64,000 nucleotides of DNA from Actinomycetota bacterium (lineage in GTDB: Bacteria > Actinomycetota > Acidimicrobiia > Acidimicrobiales > AC-14): the NCBI GenBank assembly GCA_040754375.1, contig JBFMCT010000013.1, positions 1-64,000 of the forward strand, read 5' to 3'. A program made the translations under genes and the position numbers. Shown here in pieces: positions 32,262 to 41,385 of the stretch; position 1 is the first letter of the stretch, and each line of letters starts with the position of its first letter. The notes under the pieces are model-generated. The model was not told where the DNA came from and did no database searches. It worked only from the letters and a program-made list of their open reading frames with translations.

Positions 32262-32789
32262 ATGCTCGTCTCAGAACTGGTGGCTCGCGGCGGCGCGGTC
32301 CAGGTGGTCGACGTGCGCTGGCCCAACGAGTGGGAGGCGGGCCACATCGAGGGCTCGGTCCACATGCCCCTCGACGACATCGAGGAGCGCTACCGCGAGC
32401 TCGACCGGGGCCGGCCGGTGGTGACTGTGTGCCGCTCGGGCAACCGGTCGGCCACGGCCGCCCGCCACCTCGAGGCCGAGGGCTTCGGGGCCGAAAGCCT
32501 CGAGGGCGGGCTGGAGGCCTGGGTGGCCGAAGGCCGGGCACTGGTGGCAGCCGACGGCTCGCAGGGGTCGGTGGTCGACGCCCAGCCCCCGGCCGACGAC
32601 CGTCCCGCCGAGCACCAGAGGCTCGAGGCCGAGCTGCTCAGTGTCCTGTTCGCCGTGCAGGCCCACTTCGGCGACCGGGAGCCGTCGGACGAGGAGGTGC
32701 GGGGGTTCCTGCGCCAGCGCCTGATCGACGAGGGCCGGAGCGAGGCGGAGGCCGACCGGTTCATGGCCTCCCTCGACGGGCCGGGCTGA
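32262..32789 (+). CDS. Rhodanese-domain sulfurtransferase
   Basis: 175 aa. Residues 1-95 are one rhodanese domain: VVDVRWPNEWEAGHIEGSVHMPL and the active-site loop VCRSGNRS with Cys57, which carries the persulfide. The remaining about 75 residues (AEHQRLEAELLSVLFAVQAHFGDREPSDEEVRGFL) are helical and not recognised. 16 bp before a persulfide-dioxygenase-like gene, then a TauE-type exporter, so the three probably form a reactive-sulfur detoxification operon in which this protein transfers sulfane sulfur. Confidence 0.9.
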   Translation: MLVSELVARGGAVQVVDVRWPNEWEAGHIEGSVHMPLDDIEERYRELDRGRPVVTVCRSGNRSATAARHLEAEGFGAESLEGGLEAWVAEGRALVAADGSQGSVVDAQPPADDRPAEHQRLEAELLSVLFAVQAHFGDREPSDEEVRGFLRQRLIDEGRSEAEADRFMASLDGPG

Positions 32790-32805: not shown

Positions 32806-34209
32806 GTGTTCTTCAAGCAGTTCCACCATCCCGGCCTGGGCCACGCCAGCTACCTCGTGGGCGCCGAGAGCACGGGCGAGGCACTTGTCTTCGATCCCCG
32901 GCGCGACGTGAGCCCCTACTTCGACGTGGCCCGCGACCAGGGCCTGCGGGTCGCCTTCGCCCTCGACTCCCACGGCCACAACGACTACCTGTCGGGCCTC
33001 ACCGAGGTCGGCCAGCGGGCCGAAGTGGAGAAGTGGGGCTCGTCGGCCGCCGAGCTGGGGTACGACCACCGGCCCTTGCGCGACGGCCAGCAGATCGAGA
33101 TGGGTGAGGTCGGCCTCGAGGTGTTGCACACGCCCGGCCACACCCCCGAGCACATCTCGCTGCTCGTCTACGACCGCGACGTGTCCGCCGACGAACCGGC
33201 CCTTCTGCTCTCGGGCGGGGCCCTGCTGGTCGGCGACCTCGCCCGGCCCGACCTGCTGGGCGGCCACGACCAGGCGGTCGAGGCAGCCAAGGTCTTCTGC
33301 CACACCATCCAGTCCAAGATCCTGCAGCTGCCCGACCACGTCGAGGTGTTCCCGACCCACGTGGCCGGCTCGCTGTGCGGGGGCAACATCGGCAGCCGCC
33401 TGTCGACCACGGTCGGCTACGAACGGCGGACCAACGCCATCCTTTCCCAGGTCTCCTCCAAGGGTGAGTTCGTCGAGCAGTGCCTGCGCCTCGACAACCT
33501 GCCGGCCGTGCCGCCCTACTGGAGGCGGATGCGCAGCCAGAACATGGCCGGGGTCTCCCCCCTGGGTGCCCTGGGCGAGCCCCCGGCGCTTACCCCGGCC
33601 CGCTTGGGGCAGATGGCGGCCGACGGGGTGGTCGTGCTCGACACCCGGTCGGCGGAGGCCTTCGCCGGCGGCCACGTGCGCGGTGCCCTCAACGTCGGGC
33701 TGGGCTCGGCCTTCGCCACGTGGGCGGGCACGGTTATCGACGACGGCGACGAGGTGGTGCTGGTGCTGTCGTCCCCGTCGGAGCTGTGGACGGCGGTCTG
33801 GGAGCTACTGCGCATCGGTTACGACCTCCCGCTCGGGTGGTTGTCGGGGGGTATGCAGGCGTGGCGGACCTCGGCCTACGACGTGGCCCGCCTGCCCCAG
33901 ATGACCGTGCACGAGCTGCAGGCGGGCTTGGCGGCCGGCGACGTCGACCTGCTCGATGTCCGCCAGCCCGCCGAGTGGGCCGCCGGCCACGTGGAGGGGG
34001 CGATGTTCGTGACCGGAGCCGAGCTGCCTCGCCGCCTCGACGAGGTGGCCGGCGGCAGCCGCCCGCTGGCGGTTACCTGCGGGTCGGGCTACCGGTCGTC
34101 GGTGGCCGCCAGCCTGCTGGCCCGCGACGGCCGCCGCCCGGTGCTCAACACCATCGGTGGGATGAGCGCGTGGTCGGCTGCCGGCCTCCCGACGGTGAAG
34201 GACGGCTGA
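32806..34209 (+). CDS. Persulfide dioxygenase-like metallo-beta-lactamase fold fused to two rhodanese domains
   Basis: 467 aa. Residues 1-about 250 are a glyoxalase-II-like MBL domain: DSHGHNDYLSG supplies His56, His58 and Asp60 of the iron site, HTPGHTPEHISL adds His112, and GALLVGDLARPDLLG the bridging Asp. Residues about 265-365 are a rhodanese domain without an active-site Cys (LSSPSELW in its place), residues about 370-465 a second one with Cys425 (TCGSGYRSS). This three-part layout is that of CstB-type enzymes, which oxidise low-molecular-weight persulfides to sulfite or thiosulfate. GTG start. The neighbouring TauE-type transporter would export the sulfite formed. Confidence 0.9.
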   Translation: MFFKQFHHPGLGHASYLVGAESTGEALVFDPRRDVSPYFDVARDQGLRVAFALDSHGHNDYLSGLTEVGQRAEVEKWGSSAAELGYDHRPLRDGQQIEMGEVGLEVLHTPGHTPEHISLLVYDRDVSADEPALLLSGGALLVGDLARPDLLGGHDQAVEAAKVFCHTIQSKILQLPDHVEVFPTHVAGSLCGGNIGSRLSTTVGYERRTNAILSQVSSKGEFVEQCLRLDNLPAVPPYWRRMRSQNMAGVSPLGALGEPPALTPARLGQMAADGVVVLDTRSAEAFAGGHVRGALNVGLGSAFATWAGTVIDDGDEVVLVLSSPSELWTAVWELLRIGYDLPLGWLSGGMQAWRTSAYDVARLPQMTVHELQAGLAAGDVDLLDVRQPAEWAAGHVEGAMFVTGAELPRRLDEVAGGSRPLAVTCGSGYRSSVAASLLARDGRRPVLNTIGGMSAWSAAGLPTVKDG

Positions 34210-34234: not shown

Positions 34235-35047
34235 GTGAAGGCCCTCTTCGTATCCCCCCTCGGGCTGCTGATCGGCCTGTCCCTGGGGGCCCTGGGTGGC
34301 GGCGGCTCCATCCTGGCTGTCCCCGTGCTCGTCTACGCCGCCGGCCAGCCCGTGCGGGCCGCGACCACCACCAGCCTGCTGGTCGTGGGGGTGGCCGCGG
34401 TGGCCAGCGTGGTCGGCCACTGGCGAGCCGGGCGGGTGATGGCCGGCCCCGGCACGGTGGTCGGCCTGGCCGGCGTCGGCGGCTCGTTCGCCGGGTCGGC
34501 CCTGAACCGCGGCCTCGACCCCGACGTGCTGCTGCTGGCCTTCTCCGCCCTGGTCCTGGTGGCTGCTTGGCGGATGGTCACGGGGTGCCCGTCGTGCACC
34601 CGCGCCGGCGAACGCCAGGCCCTGGCCCTGGCCACCCCCGGGGAGCGTTCGGTGGGCGGGTTGCGCCTCGACGGGCCCACGGTGGCCAAGGTGCTCGCTG
34701 TGGGGACCGTGGTCGGGTTCTTCACTGGGCTGTTCGGAGTGGGCGGGGGGTTCATCATCGTGCCCGCGCTGACGCTCGTAATGGGCTTCACCATGCCGGT
34801 GGCCATCGGAACGTCCATCCTGGTCGTCGCCATCAACTCCGCCCTGGCCCTGGTCGCCCGGTTGGGCGACCAGGGGGTGGACTGGGCGGTGGCCGGCCCG
34901 TTCACGGTGGCCGCCGTGGCCGGGGCCCTGGCCGGGTCACGGGTGGCCGACCGCCTGCCCGCCCGGCTGCTGGTGCGGGCTTTCGCCACCCTGCTGGTGC
35001 TCGTCGCCGCCTACACGGCGGCCCGCGCCCTGGCCGACCTGCTCTGA
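34235..35047 (+). CDS. TauE/SafE-family sulfite/sulfonate exporter
   Basis: 270 aa integral membrane protein with about eight helices in two similar halves. Each half carries the family's glycine motif: GALGGGGSILAVPVLVY near the N-terminus and FFTGLFGVGGGFIIVPALTL in the second half. The loop GCPSCTRAGERQ between them has a CxxC. Family members export sulfite, sulfoacetate and related anions. GTG start 34235, 25 bp after the persulfide dioxygenase gene. The context makes sulfite the likely substrate. Confidence 0.9.
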   Translation: MKALFVSPLGLLIGLSLGALGGGGSILAVPVLVYAAGQPVRAATTTSLLVVGVAAVASVVGHWRAGRVMAGPGTVVGLAGVGGSFAGSALNRGLDPDVLLLAFSALVLVAAWRMVTGCPSCTRAGERQALALATPGERSVGGLRLDGPTVAKVLAVGTVVGFFTGLFGVGGGFIIVPALTLVMGFTMPVAIGTSILVVAINSALALVARLGDQGVDWAVAGPFTVAAVAGALAGSRVADRLPARLLVRAFATLLVLVAAYTAARALADLL

Positions 35048-35062: not shown

Positions 35063-35734
35063 TCAGCCCAGGCGGGGGGAGGTGAGCGCGGCCAGGCTCT
35101 CCAGCTTGTGGTGGCGTTCGTCGAGACCGACCTGGCGGAAGAAGTCGGCCATGGACGCGAAGTACCCGTAGTCGGGGGCGAACTGGCTCACGAACGCCAT
35201 GTCCTCCAGTTCGGGGCACTCGGCCACGAACTGCATGTACTCGTGCTCGGCGTGGTCCTCGAACTCGGCGTTGAGCCGGTAGCTCCACGCTGGTTTGACC
35301 ACGAATAGCACCACCGACACCTGGTAGACGAGCATGGCCAGCACTTGTGGTACGACCCGGTACCACAGGATGCTCTCTCGCACCTTTGACCGCCGGATCT
35401 GCTCCTCGATGATCAACAGGTGCCACTGCTCATTGTCCTGCTGGTGACGGCTCTCCTCCACCCGGCGGAACACCCGCCGGGCACGCTGGGGCCACGGGTG
35501 CGTGTGGGTCAGGGCGATGTAGCCCACTCTCTCCCACGCCTGGTAGGGCACCCGAGCCACGACCTCGAGCACCCGGAACTTCGAGAGGCTGCGGCGCCGC
35601 CCGTAGAAGAGGTCGAGAGAGGCGAAAAGGGCTCGCGAAAGGAGGCTGTAATGAAGCCGAGGAGACGTGAGCGTCTCTTCCTGGGCCAGTCGGAGAACGG
35701 CCGCAGGATCGTCGTTGTATGCAGTGAGGGCCAT
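35063..35734 (-). CDS. Alternative-oxidase-like diiron protein
   Basis: 223 aa. All six diiron ligands expected of an alternative oxidase/plastid terminal oxidase can be placed by eye: Glu57 (VLEVVARVPY, compare LETVAxVP), Glu102 and His105 (NEQWH, compare NERMH), Glu159 (FEDHAEHEY, compare LEEEAxHSY), Glu206 and His209 (DERHH, compare DEAHH). The hydrophobic stretch VLAMLVYQVSVVLFVV lies where the enzyme dips into the membrane. Such enzymes oxidise quinol with oxygen, do not pump protons, and resist cyanide and sulfide. It lies 121 bp after arsC on the same strand and convergent with the sulfide-detoxification genes, a sensible place for a sulfide-tolerant oxidase. ATG 35734 preferred over an earlier start. 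Confidence 0.82.
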   Translation of the reverse strand: MALTAYNDDPAAVLRLAQEETLTSPRLHYSLLSRALFASLDLFYGRRRSLSKFRVLEVVARVPYQAWERVGYIALTHTHPWPQRARRVFRRVEESRHQQDNEQWHLLIIEEQIRRSKVRESILWYRVVPQVLAMLVYQVSVVLFVVKPAWSYRLNAEFEDHAEHEYMQFVAECPELEDMAFVSQFAPDYGYFASMADFFRQVGLDERHHKLESLAALTSPRLG

Positions 35735-35855
35735 GCCGTCAACATACTGGCCCGGGGTTACGGCACCATTGGCCCCGCATGGCCAGCAAATGAACAACGC
35801 CTCACGCCTCCCTTCGTAGGCGTGGCCGGCGGACCGGGGGCGGCCCGGTAGGCCC

Positions 35856-36500
35856 TCAGGCGGTCGGTACCCCGAGGCTGGTGAGCAGGTCGCGGACCCG
35901 GCGGCCGATCTCGTCGCGAACGGGGCGGACGGCCTCGACGGTCTTGCCGAAGGGGTCGTCGAGCACCCAGTCCTCGTAGCGCTTGCCCGGGAACAAGGGG
36001 CAGGCGTCCCCGCAGCCCATGGTCACGACGACGTCGGCCGCCTGGACGATCTCGGTGGTCCAGGGCTTGGGGAACTCAGAGGAGATGTCGATGCCGACCT
36101 CGGCCATGGCCGCCACGGCCGCCGGGTTGACCTCGGCCCCGGCCTCGGACCCGCCCGACCAGGCCACGGCCCGTTCGCCGGCCAGGTGGTTGAACCACCC
36201 GAGGGCCATCTGCGAACGCCCGGCGTTGTGCACGCACAGGAACAGGACGACGGGCACGCCGCCCACGGCCCGGCCCTCGACCCGGGCCAGCGCGGCCAGG
36301 CGCTGGCGGGCGAAGCGTTCGGCCAGCAGGGGAAGGAAGTTGGCCACCGTGGCCCGGGTGGCGAACTGGTCGTAGCTGGTTGTGAGGAACATCTCGATGG
36401 TCTCGGGCCCGAACGTCCCGCCGAACTCGTCGGCCAGCCGTAGGGCGGCGCTGTGCAGCAGGGCCCTCTGCTCGAGGGGGACCTCGTCGGTATTGGTCAC
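35856..36500 (-). CDS. arsC: Arsenate reductase (low-Mr phosphatase type) with N-terminal helical domain
   Basis: 214 aa. Residues 1-about 75 form a three-helix bundle found fused to some actinobacterial arsenate reductases. From about 80, the LMW-phosphatase-like domain starts VVLFLCVHNAGRSQMA, with the Cys-x5-Arg-Ser phosphate loop, followed by MGCGDACPLFPGKRYEDWVLDDP, which has the extra Cys residues and the DDP Asp. Reduces arsenate to arsenite, probably with mycothiol or a thioredoxin-like partner in this lineage (inference). GTG start follows GGAGAAACCA. Third gene of the minus-strand ars operon. Confidence 0.9.
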   Translation of the reverse strand: MTNTDEVPLEQRALLHSAALRLADEFGGTFGPETIEMFLTTSYDQFATRATVANFLPLLAERFARQRLAALARVEGRAVGGVPVVLFLCVHNAGRSQMALGWFNHLAGERAVAWSGGSEAGAEVNPAAVAAMAEVGIDISSEFPKPWTTEIVQAADVVVTMGCGDACPLFPGKRYEDWVLDDPFGKTVEAVRPVRDEIGRRVRDLLTSLGVPTA

Positions 36501-36516: not shown

Positions 36517-37224
36517 TCAGTCGCCCGGGCGGGGCAGGACGGTGTCGGCGGCCAGCTCGGCGGGCGCAGGGTGCAGGTAGGCCACGGTGGCCACGGCCAG
36601 TGCCGCGCCCACGAGTTGGGCGGTCACGAAGGCCGGCACCGAGCCCGGGCTGATGCCTGCGAACGTGTCCGACAGGGCCCGGGCGACGGTGACCGCCGGG
36701 TTGGCGAAGCTGGTGGAGGACGTGAAGAAGTAGGCCCCCCCGATGTAGGCGCCGACGGCGAACGGGGCGACCGAGGCCCGGCCCGAGCGGACCACCCCGA
36801 AGATGACCAGCAACAGGCCGAAGGTGGCCACGATCTCGCTGGTCCACAGGGCGGGCGAGGAGCGGTCGGTGGTGGCCATGGTGACGGGGCCCACCGAGAA
36901 CATCACGTTGGCCACGACTGCGCCGGCTGCCCCCCCGGCCACCTGGGCGGCCACGTAGGCCGCCGCCTCCCGGTTGGACATGGCCCCCAGGGCGCGGTTG
37001 GCCAGGGTGACCACCGGGTTGAGGTGGGCGCCCGAGACGGGCCCGACAGCCAGGATGATGGCGACCAGGGCGGCAGCGGTGGCTGCCGCGTTCTGCAGGA
37101 GTTGCAGCCCGGTGTCGCCCGGGGACAGCCGCGAAGCGGCGATCCCCGAGCCGACGACGGCCATGACCAGCAGGCCCGTTCCCAGGGCCTCGGCCGTGGC
37201 CCGGCGGGGCAGGTCGGTGCTCAA
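36517..37224 (-). CDS. MIP/aquaglyceroporin, probable arsenite channel
   Basis: 235 aa, six membrane helices. The two half-helix motifs read SGAHLNPVV (NPV instead of NPA) and SFANPAVT (NPA). Start TTG 37224 puts EALGTGLLVMAVVGSGIAA, the usual first aquaporin helix, near the N-terminus. Position inside an ars operon between arsC and an ArsI-like gene matches AqpS-type arsenite efflux channels, which replace ArsB when arsenate is reduced inside the cell. 16 bp separate it from arsC. No ArsB or Acr3 pump is seen in this window. Confidence 0.88.
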   Translation of the reverse strand: MSTDLPRRATAEALGTGLLVMAVVGSGIAASRLSPGDTGLQLLQNAAATAAALVAIILAVGPVSGAHLNPVVTLANRALGAMSNREAAAYVAAQVAGGAAGAVVANVMFSVGPVTMATTDRSSPALWTSEIVATFGLLLVIFGVVRSGRASVAPFAVGAYIGGAYFFTSSTSFANPAVTVARALSDTFAGISPGSVPAFVTAQLVGAALAVATVAYLHPAPAELAADTVLPRPGD

Positions 37225-37255
37225 GCGGCCCTGCCCCGCGGCTGGGGCCAACCGA

Positions 37256-37762
37256 TCAGCAGCACGCCGAGGTACCGGCCTTGACCGTGGTCGTGCCGTC
37301 CTCGGCCGTGACCGTCTCGGCGCAGCACACGGCCCCGGTCTCAGGGTCGACGGTGCGCAGGGAACCACCGGGCATCTCCACGTCCTCGAGGACCGTGTAG
37401 ATCTCCCACGGCTCGCCCGAAGGGCCGTCGACCCACACCTTGTCCTGGCGGGCGTAACAACAGGCCACACCCTCTTCGGTGGCCGTGGCCAGGCCCTCGC
37501 CGGCCAGGCGGGCTTGGGCCGCGCCCACGAGCTCGCTCGAGCCCACCTCAACGCCGAGATGGTTGATCGTTCCCCCCTTGCCGGGCTGCTCGAACAGCAC
37601 GAGCTTCAGCGGCGGCTGGGCGATGGCGAAGTTGGCGTAGCCCGCTCGGCGCTTGGCCGGTGCCGTGGCGAACAGCTTGGAGTAGAAGTCGACGGCCGTG
37701 TCGATGTCCTCGACGTTGAGGGCGAGCTGCACCCTCGAACCCTCCAGCTTCCCTTGGTCCAT
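37256..37762 (-). CDS. ArsI/CadI-family VOC protein
   Basis: 168 aa. Begins with the family block RVQLALNVEDIDTAVDFYSKLF and contains INHLGVEV (His68), ACCYARQDKVWVDGP (the vicinal Cys101-Cys102 pair used to bind trivalent arsenicals in ArsI) and GEPWEIYTV (Glu120). The tail ends SACC, a second Cys pair. ArsI cleaves the carbon-arsenic bond of methylarsenite or aromatic arsenicals; CadI relatives are cadmium-induced. Strong ribosome-binding site (AAGGAGGGCCCAGC before ATG). First gene of the ars operon, divergent from arsR. Confidence 0.88.
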   Translation of the reverse strand: MDQGKLEGSRVQLALNVEDIDTAVDFYSKLFATAPAKRRAGYANFAIAQPPLKLVLFEQPGKGGTINHLGVEVGSSELVGAAQARLAGEGLATATEEGVACCYARQDKVWVDGPSGEPWEIYTVLEDVEMPGGSLRTVDPETGAVCCAETVTAEDGTTTVKAGTSACC

Positions 37763-37833: not shown

Positions 37834-38208
37834 GTGATGCCAGTGGACGGAGCGGTGGTGCCTTCGAGGCCGGGGCGGCGGCCGGTGGCGGTGATCGCCG
37901 ACGAGTGCTGCCCGGCCGGGCTGACCTCGCCGCTAGCCGAGGCCGAGGCCGAGGCACTGGCCCGTGACTTCTCGGCCCTGGGCGACCCGGTGCGGCTCCG
38001 CCTGCTGAGCATGCTGGCCTCGGCTCCTGCCGGGGAGGCGTGCGTGTGCGAGCTGGTCGAACCGCTGGACCGTTCCCAACCCACGGTGTCGCACCACCTC
38101 AAGGTCCTGGCCGACGCCGGCCTGATCACCGGGGAGAAGCGGGGCCGGTGGGTCTGGTACCGGCCCGTCCCCGAGCGCTTCGCCGACCTGCGCCGCTTCC
38201 TGGCCTGA
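37834..38208 (+). CDS. arsR: ArsR/SmtB-family repressor
   Basis: 124 aa winged-helix metalloregulator. LARDFSALGDPVRLRLLSMLASAP leads into the sensor helix EACVCELVEPL, whose CVC is the alpha-3 arsenite-binding motif, then the recognition helix QPTVSHHLKVLADAGLI and wing KRGRWVWYRP. An N-terminal ECC pair (ADECCPAG) may provide a further thiol ligand. Expected to release DNA on binding As(III), inducing the divergent operon and itself. GTG 37834 or ATG 37837 are both possible starts. Confidence 0.92.
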   Translation: MMPVDGAVVPSRPGRRPVAVIADECCPAGLTSPLAEAEAEALARDFSALGDPVRLRLLSMLASAPAGEACVCELVEPLDRSQPTVSHHLKVLADAGLITGEKRGRWVWYRPVPERFADLRRFLA

Positions 38209-38239: not shown

Positions 38240-39928
38240 ATGCCGCCCGTGGCCCCCCCTGTGCTGCTCACGATCGACGACGACCCGGGCGTGTCCCGGG
38301 CAGTGGCCCGGGACCTGCGCCAGCGCTACGGCGAGCGCTTCCGCGTAAGGAGGGCCGAGAGCCCGGCCTCGGCCCTCGACGCCCTCCACGAGCTCAGGGC
38401 GCGCGACGACCGCGTCGCGCTGCTCCTAGCCGACCAGCGCATGCCCGACATGACGGGCGTCGAGCTGCTCGACGAGGCCCGGGCCATCTTCCCGACGGCC
38501 CGCCGGGTGCTGCTCACGGCCTACGCCGACACCGACGCGGCGATCGCCGCCATCAACGACGTGAAGGTCGACTACTACCTGCTCAAGCCGTGGGACCCGC
38601 CCGAGGAGAAGCTCTACCCCGTGCTCGACGACCTGCTGGAGGACTGGGCCGCTCAGCACCCGCCGCCGTTCGAGGGCGTGCGGGTGGTGGGCCACCGCTG
38701 GTCGGCCCGGTCCCACGCGGTGAAGGACTTCCTGGCTCGCAACCTCGTCCCGTTCCAGTGGCTGGACGCCGAACGCGACCCCGGCGCGGCCCGCCTCCTG
38801 GGCGGCAACGGGCCCGGGGACGGGGCCGGGGACGGGGCCGGTCGGGACCGGCTCCCGCTCGTGCTCCCGCCCGGCGGCCAGGCGCTCCACTCGCCGTCGA
38901 TCGGCGAGCTGGCGGCTGCCCTGGGCCTGTCCAGCGCGCCGGGCCTGCCCTTCTACGACTTGGTGGTGGTGGGGGCCGGCCCTGCGGGCCTGGGGGCGGC
39001 CGTGTACGGCGCGTCGGAGGGCCTGCGCACCCTGCTGATCGAGCGTGACGCGGTGGGCGGACAGGCGGGCCAGAGCTCGCGCATCGAGAACTACCTGGGG
39101 TTCCCCTCGGGGTTGTCAGGCGCCGACCTCACCCGGCGGGCGGCCACCCAGGCTCGGCGGTTCGGGGCCGAGATGCTGCTGGTGGCCGAGGCCGTGGGGG
39201 TGGAGCGGTGCGGGGCTGGGCGGGTCGTCCGCCTGGCCAGCGGGGACGACGTCGCCGCTCACACGGTCCTGCTCACGGGAGGCGTGTCCTACACCCGCCT
39301 GGAGCCGGTCGACGAGTTCGCGGGCCGGGGCGTGTACTACGGGGCGGCGACGACCGAGGGGATGAGCTGTAAGGACGACGACGTGTTCGTGGTCGGAGGC
39401 GCCAACTCGGCTGGCCAGGCGGCCGTCTACTTCGCCCGCTGGGCCCGCCACGTGACCCTGCTGGTGAGGGGTGACGACCTCGGGAAGTCGATGTCGCACT
39501 ACCTCATCGCCCAGATCTCCGAACTGGAGAACGTGTCGGTGAGGACAGGGGTGGAGGTCGTGGGGGCATCGGGCGAGGGCCACCTCGAGCGCCTCCTGCT
39601 CCGGGACCGGGTCACGGGCGACCAGCAGGAGATCGACGCGTCGTGGCTGTTCGTCTTCATCGGCGCCGCCCCCCGCACCGAGTGGCTGGGCGAGGACGTG
39701 CGCCGTGACAGCCGGGGGTTCGTCCTCACCGGCCCCGATGTGCTGGTGGATGGGCGCCCGCCGCCGGGCTGGGACCTCGACCGCCAGCCTTACTACCTGG
39801 AGTCGAGTGTTCCCGGGGTGTTCGCCGCGGGTGACATGCGCCACGAGTCGGTCAAGCGGGTGGCCTCGGCGGTGGGGGAGGGGGCCATGGCCGTGACCCT
39901 GGTCCACCGGTACCTGGAGCACCTGTGA
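38240..39928 (+). CDS. Response-regulator receiver fused to a thioredoxin-reductase-like flavoprotein
   Basis: 562 aa. Residues 1-about 130 are a receiver domain: TIDDDPG acidic pocket, phospho-acceptor Asp65 (LLLADQRMPDMTG) and the conserved Lys in YYLLKPW. Residues about 145-225 look like a glutaredoxin/thioredoxin-like insert without CxxC. From about 235 comes a class II pyridine nucleotide-disulfide reductase fold: FAD loop VVVGAGPAGLGAA, GGQAGQSSRIENYLGFP, NADPH loop VFVVGGANSAGQAA, and GVFAAGDMR. The redox CxxC of thioredoxin reductase is absent (TTEGMSCKDDDV has one Cys). So phosphorylation may steer a flavin oxidoreductase with an unknown acceptor. Coupled by GTGA to a histidine kinase. 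Confidence 0.88.
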   Translation: MPPVAPPVLLTIDDDPGVSRAVARDLRQRYGERFRVRRAESPASALDALHELRARDDRVALLLADQRMPDMTGVELLDEARAIFPTARRVLLTAYADTDAAIAAINDVKVDYYLLKPWDPPEEKLYPVLDDLLEDWAAQHPPPFEGVRVVGHRWSARSHAVKDFLARNLVPFQWLDAERDPGAARLLGGNGPGDGAGDGAGRDRLPLVLPPGGQALHSPSIGELAAALGLSSAPGLPFYDLVVVGAGPAGLGAAVYGASEGLRTLLIERDAVGGQAGQSSRIENYLGFPSGLSGADLTRRAATQARRFGAEMLLVAEAVGVERCGAGRVVRLASGDDVAAHTVLLTGGVSYTRLEPVDEFAGRGVYYGAATTEGMSCKDDDVFVVGGANSAGQAAVYFARWARHVTLLVRGDDLGKSMSHYLIAQISELENVSVRTGVEVVGASGEGHLERLLLRDRVTGDQQEIDASWLFVFIGAAPRTEWLGEDVRRDSRGFVLTGPDVLVDGRPPPGWDLDRQPYYLESSVPGVFAAGDMRHESVKRVASAVGEGAMAVTLVHRYLEHL

Positions 39929-41385
39929 CCGACGGCTCGGGCGGAGGCGGGGCGGGCGGGGCCGCGGGCGGAGCCGCCGAGGCCGGGATCATCGACGAGA
40001 TCCGGACCTGCTTTCTGTTCGACGCCCTCGACGAGGGCCAACTGGCCCACCTGGCCGGGCTGGGCCGAACCACCGAGTACGCCGAAGGCTCGTTCGTCTA
40101 CCGCGAGGGCGAACCGGCCACCTGCTTCTTCGTGCTCCTCTCGGGCGAGGTGCAGTTGCTCAAGCGGGTCGGTCCCGACGACGTGGTGATCCTGGCCAGC
40201 GACCACCGGGGGGCCTACGCCGGGGCGACGCGGGCGTTCGTGCCGTCGATGGGCGACCAGGCCTACTCCAACAGCATGCGGGCCGTCCGGGAGTCGCGGT
40301 TCTTCGAGCTGGGGGCCGACGACTTCGCCGACGCCCTGCGGCGCTGGTTCCCGATGGCCACCCACCTGCTCGACGGCCTGTTCCTGGGTCTCACCAACAT
40401 CGAGGCCATCACCGGCCAGCGCGAGAAGCTGTTCGCCCTGGGCAAGCTGTCGGCCGGCATGGCCCACGAGCTCAACAACCCGGCGTCGGCGCTTGTGCGG
40501 GCATCGCAGTCCCTGCGCCGGCGCCTGGCCGAGTCCCAGGGCGCGGTGTCCCACCTCGTGGGCCGGGTCGACCCCGAAGCCTTCGCCCAGGTGGTCGCAC
40601 TGTGGGAGGAGGCGGCCGCCAGCGCCCGGGCGGCCGGGCCCCTGAGCCCCCTGGAGGCCGGCGACGCCGAGGACGAACTGGGGGAGTGGCTGGACGAGAA
40701 CGGTGTCGAGGGGCCGTGGGAGCTGGCCCCCGTGCTGGCCAACGCCGGCATCGGCACCGACTGGCTGGCGAGGATGGCCGAGGTGACGGGCGAGAAGCTG
40801 GGGCCGGCCCTGCGCTGGGTGGTGGCCCGGGTCGAGGTCAACTCGCTGGTCGACGAGGTCGAGGACTCGGCCCAACGGGTCTCGGCGCTGGTGGCGTCGG
40901 TGAAGGAGTACACCCACATGGACCGCGCCCCCCACGCCGAGACCGACGTGCACGACGGGCTGGAGAGCACGCTGGTGATGCTGGGCCACAAGCTGCGGGG
41001 CGGCGTCGAGGTGGTGCGCGACTACGACCGCTCGCTCCCCGAGGTGTTGGCCTATGGCAGCGAGCTCAACCAGGTGTGGACCAACCTGATCGACAACGCG
41101 GTGGACGCCATGGACGGCCACGGCACCCTCACCATCCGCACGGCCCGCGACGGCGACCACCTGCTGGTGGAGGTGCGCGACACCGGGCCGGGGATCGCCC
41201 CCGAGCACCAGCGGCGGGTCTTCGAGCCCTTCTTCACCACCAAGGAGGTGGGCAAGGGGACCGGCCTCGGCCTCGACATCGCCTACCGGGTGGTCGTCCA
41301 GCGCCACCACGGCGACCTGCGGCTGCGGTCCGAGCCCGGCGACACCCGCTTCGAGGTACGCCTCCCTCTCGACGGCCCCACCTGA
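39925..41385 (+). CDS. Histidine kinase with N-terminal cyclic-nucleotide-binding-like domain
   Basis: 486 aa, no membrane segments. After a Gly/Ala-rich start, residues about 25-150 are a CRP/cNMP-binding fold (FDALDEGQLAHLAGLGRTTEYAEGSFVYREGEPATCFFVLLSGEVQLLKRV). The phosphate cassette is not obvious, so it may sense something else. LSAGMAHELNNPASALVRAS contains phospho-acceptor His181; HATPase motifs are NQVWTNLIDNAVDAM (N box), DTGPGIAPE (G1), FEPFFTTKEVGKGTGLGL (F/G2). Starts GTG overlapping the receiver-flavoprotein stop (GTGA), so the two are an obligate pair: cytosolic sensing, then phosphorylation of the fused oxidoreductase. Confidence 0.9.
   Translation: MTDGSGGGGAGGAAGGAAEAGIIDEIRTCFLFDALDEGQLAHLAGLGRTTEYAEGSFVYREGEPATCFFVLLSGEVQLLKRVGPDDVVILASDHRGAYAGATRAFVPSMGDQAYSNSMRAVRESRFFELGADDFADALRRWFPMATHLLDGLFLGLTNIEAITGQREKLFALGKLSAGMAHELNNPASALVRASQSLRRRLAESQGAVSHLVGRVDPEAFAQVVALWEEAAASARAAGPLSPLEAGDAEDELGEWLDENGVEGPWELAPVLANAGIGTDWLARMAEVTGEKLGPALRWVVARVEVNSLVDEVEDSAQRVSALVASVKEYTHMDRAPHAETDVHDGLESTLVMLGHKLRGGVEVVRDYDRSLPEVLAYGSELNQVWTNLIDNAVDAMDGHGTLTIRTARDGDHLLVEVRDTGPGIAPEHQRRVFEPFFTTKEVGKGTGLGLDIAYRVVVQRHHGDLRLRSEPGDTRFEVRLPLDGPT

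Follow-up and report, generated by a model that had tools for sequence, protein, structure and literature searches.

The described members of the AOX/PTOX superfamily comprise the alternative oxidases (AOX) of mitochondria and Pseudomonadota and the plastoquinol terminal oxidases (PTOX) of cyanobacteria, cyanophages and plastids, and to our knowledge those that have been characterised use ubiquinol or plastoquinol. As for their distribution, a December 2025 survey dating the oxygen reductases, which used BLAST on a balanced dataset largely devoid of MAGs, confined prokaryotic AOX to Pseudomonadota and PTOX to Cyanobacteriota; it also regarded PTOX as untouched by lateral transfer (PMC7618691). 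A 2022 review treated the prokaryotic distribution as uncertain (PMC9246349). Within the open-access literature, a scope outside which subscription papers mostly lie, we found no paper describing the third clade reported below, and nothing relevant on menaquinol in connection with AOX or diiron enzymes or on AOX in the phyla that carry this clade.

The gene considered here lies in a window of DNA (the whole stretch analysed, 64,000 nucleotides) from an Actinomycetota bacterium of the order Acidimicrobiales. The clade to which its product belongs is already labelled AOX by Pfam. That this is a third, non-photosynthetic bacterial clade of the superfamily, extending over about ten phyla and working as haem-free menaquinol oxidases, seems to us an evenly balanced proposition. 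The occurrence of a third clade in phyla such as Omnitrophota, Rokubacteria, Elusimicrobiota, Myxococcota and Actinomycetota alters both the map drawn by the above survey (PMC7618691) and the count of origins and, if menaquinol is indeed oxidised, the superfamily would be extended to a low-potential quinone.

The oxidase gene, its iron ligands and its predicted fold

Judged from its sequence, the window gene encodes a real oxidase of the AOX/PTOX superfamily (Table 1). A preliminary description of this DNA had reported the 223-aa reading frame with all six expected iron ligands, and both were recovered as described; the exact start is nevertheless uncertain, as an in-frame TTG at 35797 would provide an alternative to the ATG and a protein of 244 aa. 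The ligands, four glutamates and two histidines in the order E57, E102, H105, E159, E206 and H209, are invariant in a 12-sequence alignment and, one truncated row excepted, in a 95-sequence clade alignment, so this set is not a product of chance. Also retained are Tyr166, Asp205 and Asn101, which are common to the AOX and PTOX references, with Tyr166 seven residues after E159 of the third helix, the same spacing as in trypanosome AOX, proteobacterial AOX and PTOX.

Table 1. Features of the window at and around the oxidase gene
Feature	Position	Strand	Remarks
Single-domain rhodanese-like protein	32262..32789	+	
MBL fold and two rhodanese domains, persulfide-dioxygenase-like	32806..34209	+	
TauE/SafE permease	34235..35047	+	convergent with oxidase, end 15 nt from oxidase stop
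AOX/PTOX-superfamily diiron oxidase gene	35734..35063	-	ATG start, 223 aa and stop
Gap from arsC stop to oxidase ATG	35735..35855	-	121 nt
arsC-like arsenate reductase, low-molecular-weight phosphatase fold, N-terminal three-helix domain	35856..36500	-	
Aquaporin (MIP), AqpS-like position in ars cluster	36517..37290	-	start approximate, ORF open to 37551
ArsI/CadI family metalloenzyme	37256..37762	-	189.5 bits (cut-off 116); start approximate, ORF open to 37957
ArsR/SmtB-family repressor	37834..38208	+	divergent to ars genes

Comparison with AOX and PTOX profiles, the check proposed in the preliminary description, supported the assignment. The Pfam AOX model (PF01786) matched the window protein at 34.2 bits, its cut-off being 22.7 (E 2.7e-8), and likewise 12 of the 12 clade members checked, and PHROG 4235, the plastoquinol terminal oxidase family, matched the window protein at E 7e-11; none of the NCBIfam profiles did. 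Searching the PDB directly with phmmer and with profiles returned no AOX, just a weak unrelated ribosomal protein, and a fold search was therefore needed. An AlphaFold model built from the 12-sequence alignment (mean pLDDT 91) had trypanosome AOX as its top fold match by Foldseek and VIA-align, with Z 20.0 over 197 residues at 2.4 A in the latter, followed at Z 13.0 and lower by nigerythrin, Dps-like proteins, bacterioferritins and COQ7. Since in VIA-align a largely helical model may reach Z of about 13-14 even when nothing matches it clearly, it is the gap from 13 to 20 that is informative. The best match was thus to AOX and not to a non-oxidase ferritin-like family, the outcome that had been named beforehand as speaking against the assignment; the geometry of the ligands was judged from the sequence alignment and the fold match.

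A third clade beside AOX and PTOX

The window protein and 94 bacterial relatives together form a third clade, apart from both described groups. Its profile scores are 343 bits against its own clade, 58 against PTOX, the strongest match outside that clade, and just 23 against AOX. In a tree of 109 rows, AOX, PTOX and the third clade each form one group with 98-100% bootstrap support, the window protein lying outside both the AOX rows (100/99) and the PTOX rows (99/96). Reference PTOX were taken from cyanophages, Nostoc and Acaryochloris, and reference AOX from Azospirillum, Sphingobium and Sphingomonas together with a trypanosome AOX fragment, all AOX references being database sequences fetched with an AOX query. 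The third-clade rows were collected with the window protein as query and their grouping is partly a result of that choice; the informative point is that the AOX and PTOX rows stay outside it. In a tree that has long branches between the groups and a root drawn at the midpoint, the clade leans towards a sister position to PTOX, which the higher score to PTOX than to AOX supports.

The residues tell a similar story of likeness and difference. With PTOX the third clade shares the six ligands and the helix motif E-x-H-A-x(3)-Y, together with Arg61, Tyr64, Tyr152 and His161, which are absent from AOX. Unlike PTOX, it occurs in non-photosynthetic hosts, the window protein being 25-31% identical to PTOX, and it carries the markers Trp67, Glu68, Asp100, Pro129 and Asn155, of which Asn155 is also found in three phage PTOX rows and the marker status of Trp67 and Glu68 is alignment-dependent, columns 67-68 being gapped in the references. 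With AOX the window protein has in common the fold, the six ligands and the tyrosine and aspartate at catalytic positions, but identity is 20-24% and the third-helix motif is F-E-D-H-A instead of L/F-E-E-E-A. Membership in AOX proper was rejected on the basis of this motif and of the position outside the AOX group, and membership in the PTOX clade on the basis of the position outside the PTOX group. The original label of an alternative-oxidase-like diiron oxidase holds as far as the family models, invariant ligands, Tyr166, Asp205 and fold are concerned, and it requires amendment in that the protein belongs to a separate clade nearer to PTOX than to AOX, with quinol oxidation as its likely, predicted activity.

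As the residues flanking the ligands (Trp67, Glu68, Asp100 and Trp104) are clade-specific, the chemistry or the substrate could have shifted. A diiron oxygenase or hydroxylase acting on another substrate, with only the AOX fold in common, would agree with these residues, with the identity of about 20-31% between the window oxidase and any AOX or PTOX reference, and with the presence among the lower fold matches of COQ7 (Z 12.1), which has the wider ferritin-like fold in common with AOX. Such a function appears quite improbable, however, since the protein keeps Tyr166, Asp205 and Asn101 as AOX and PTOX do and AOX stands 7 Z units above all other folds.

The same genome carries a second copy on contig C35 (G000:C35:14442-15071; L019:8446-9075), which is 61% identical to the window copy and groups with same-family orthologues in the tree. 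The window copy sits on a long terminal branch (0.91), is placed with uncertainty and departs from five near-invariant residues, none of them a ligand; it is the divergent second copy, and the C35 copy the typical one. The latter adjoins mscL, as does the oxidase gene of a relative from another genus (G003, L020), and has an HU-like gene nearby. Another divergent member of the clade (L025, from genome G015) shows 18 departures from near-invariant columns and keeps every ligand. Separately, a protein annotated as "hypothetical" in phage C48C1 (Kyanoviridae; OQ984149.1, WJE87901.1, L123:553-1104) grouped in the tree with AOX proper and not with PTOX.

Distribution, quinone type and physiological role

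The preliminary description considered such oxidases rare in actinobacteria, and this is borne out across the phylum, where the gene was detected in 4 of 396 genomes with the Pfam model (which scores the third clade weakly and may undercount), though it is present in 9 of 41 close relatives, the own genome counted. Two conserved peptides, used to scan 84,980 species genomes, led to 198 confirmed relatives. By record title, the hosts of the best 80 of these belong, besides Actinomycetota, to Rokubacteria/Methylomirabilota, Omnitrophota, Elusimicrobiota, Myxococcota and other former Deltaproteobacteria, Nitrospirota, Planctomycetota, Kiritimatiellae, Chlorobiales and Bacteriovoracaceae. Sparse as it is, the clade thereby spans roughly ten phyla, most carriers being MAGs, among which single-phylum cases may be misbinned. 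Strain-titled records exist for several Actinomycetota, namely the chromosome of Mycolicibacter sp. MYC098, Streptomyces sp. CNH099, Pseudonocardia asaccharolytica DSM 44247, Granulicoccus phenolivorans DSM 17626 and an Acidiferrimicrobium, and carriers of this kind, such as the Pseudonocardia and the Mycolicibacter, may render the oxidase testable. Searches of phages and plasmids by tblastn found nothing at E 0.01, and the phage matches listed at E 10 were nearly all cyanophage PTOX. Two alphaproteobacterial plasmid AOX genes (L132, L135) adjoin a truncated haemoglobin gene, and the second also a flavohaemoprotein gene, hinting at a link of AOX to nitric-oxide stress.

The own genome has a menaquinone genotype, with MenD at 446 bits and UbiG below cut-off only. 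Among 24 carrier genomes, 20 have a MenD or futalosine-pathway match over cut-off (MenD in 13, MqnA/D in seven others), neither menaquinone marker exceeds its cut-off in four, and UbiG exceeds it in two (G432, G437). A quinone survey lists Acidimicrobiia as users of Men-pathway menaquinone (PMC13386864). On these genotypes and this survey, menaquinol is the probable donor here; it may not apply in every carrier, in view of the two with UbiG and the four without a menaquinone marker. The own genome also has four matches to the haem-copper subunit I family, some of which may belong elsewhere in that superfamily, and no cytochrome bd was found in its assembly (97% complete), so that the two oxidase copies would be its only evident haem-free quinol oxidases. 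The presence of haem-copper oxidases together with the lack of cytochrome bd favours a role in resistance.

The reading that we hold to be probable is that of a membrane-surface diiron oxidase of the third clade that passes electrons from menaquinol to oxygen. Menaquinol would donate its electrons to a putatively membrane-associated enzyme, and O2 would be reduced to water at a carboxylate-bridged diiron site. As predicted, the oxidase would have no haem and pump no protons, and may serve, alongside the haem-copper oxidases, as an overflow route or one that withstands poisons. Tentatively, the same enzyme may have a different physiological role, that of an oxygen-scavenging or redox-poise valve in low or fluctuating oxygen, which would remove O2 and re-oxidise menaquinol without energy conservation. 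Record titles place many of the hosts in groundwater or sediment lineages (Omnitrophota, Elusimicrobiota, Rokubacteria), and 3 of the 24 carrier genomes have no haem-copper subunit I match, both in agreement with a valve; however, such a match is present in the other 21, this host included, host physiology is here a guess based on those titles, and gaps in an assembly may account for missing genes.

Genomic neighbourhood and the sulfide and arsenic question

On the minus strand the gene order is ArsI/CadI-like, aquaporin, arsC-like and oxidase, and the arrangement noted at the outset, with the oxidase following arsC on the same strand and convergent with a rhodanese, persulfide dioxygenase and TauE set, proved correct in both respects. 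The gap between arsC and the oxidase contains no terminator-like site and no minus-strand sigma-70-like promoter by scanning, and its RNA folding does not go beyond that of shuffled sequences; transcriptional read-through from the ars genes into the oxidase is possible. Such placement had been taken to suggest that the oxidase could maintain quinol oxidation under sulfide stress or relieve arsenic-induced oxidative stress, and an animal reportedly tolerates sulfide better with AOX (PMC8407659).

The neighbourhood in related genomes does not bear this out. With the window neighbours as queries against 92 loci (about 88 distinct), arsC, aquaporin and arsR turned up close to the oxidase in a single further genome, a member of the same family (G005; L023 = L072) with these genes about 4 kb away; TauE and the MBL-rhodanese protein accompanied it at no locus, and rhodanese was matched weakly at one. 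In the search of close relatives for arsC, direct adjacency to the oxidase was found at the window locus only, relatives with both genes, G005 aside, having them on different contigs or far apart. ORF clustering and a Pfam census across the clade revealed no general conserved operon partner, and a census of 138 immediate-neighbour proteins, from a rough gene caller that yields some spurious ORFs, found FUR in four, FdhD in three and no other recurrent family. The sulfide role thus finds the sulfur set at none of the related loci, and the arsenic role finds arsenic genes at a single one.

An oxidase for sulfide or arsenic stress, sharing the regulation of the ars genes or required once haem-copper oxidases are blocked by sulfide, would accord with the same-strand position 121 nt behind arsC without an evident terminator, with the absence of cytochrome bd and with the arsenic genes of G005. 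It is nevertheless unlikely, given the unconserved sulfur and arsenic neighbours, the restriction of the arsC adjacency to the window, and the mscL and HU-like neighbours of the typical copy on C35. The position of the window gene next to arsenic and sulfur genes seems largely incidental.

Genes for NrfD, FdhD and molybdopterin oxidoreductases are of the type that supplies electrons to the quinone pool. In Rokubacteria (L031-L036), the oxidase adjoins molybdopterin oxidoreductase, FeS, NrfD-like and FdhD genes, which suggests a quinone-reducing module of the formate dehydrogenase type beside a quinol oxidase.

Farther along the window, at 38240-41385 on the plus strand, a gene for a response-regulator receiver fused to a thioredoxin-reductase-like FAD domain overlaps by 4 nt a gene for a cNMP-binding sensor histidine kinase, and the two may form a redox-signalling pair.
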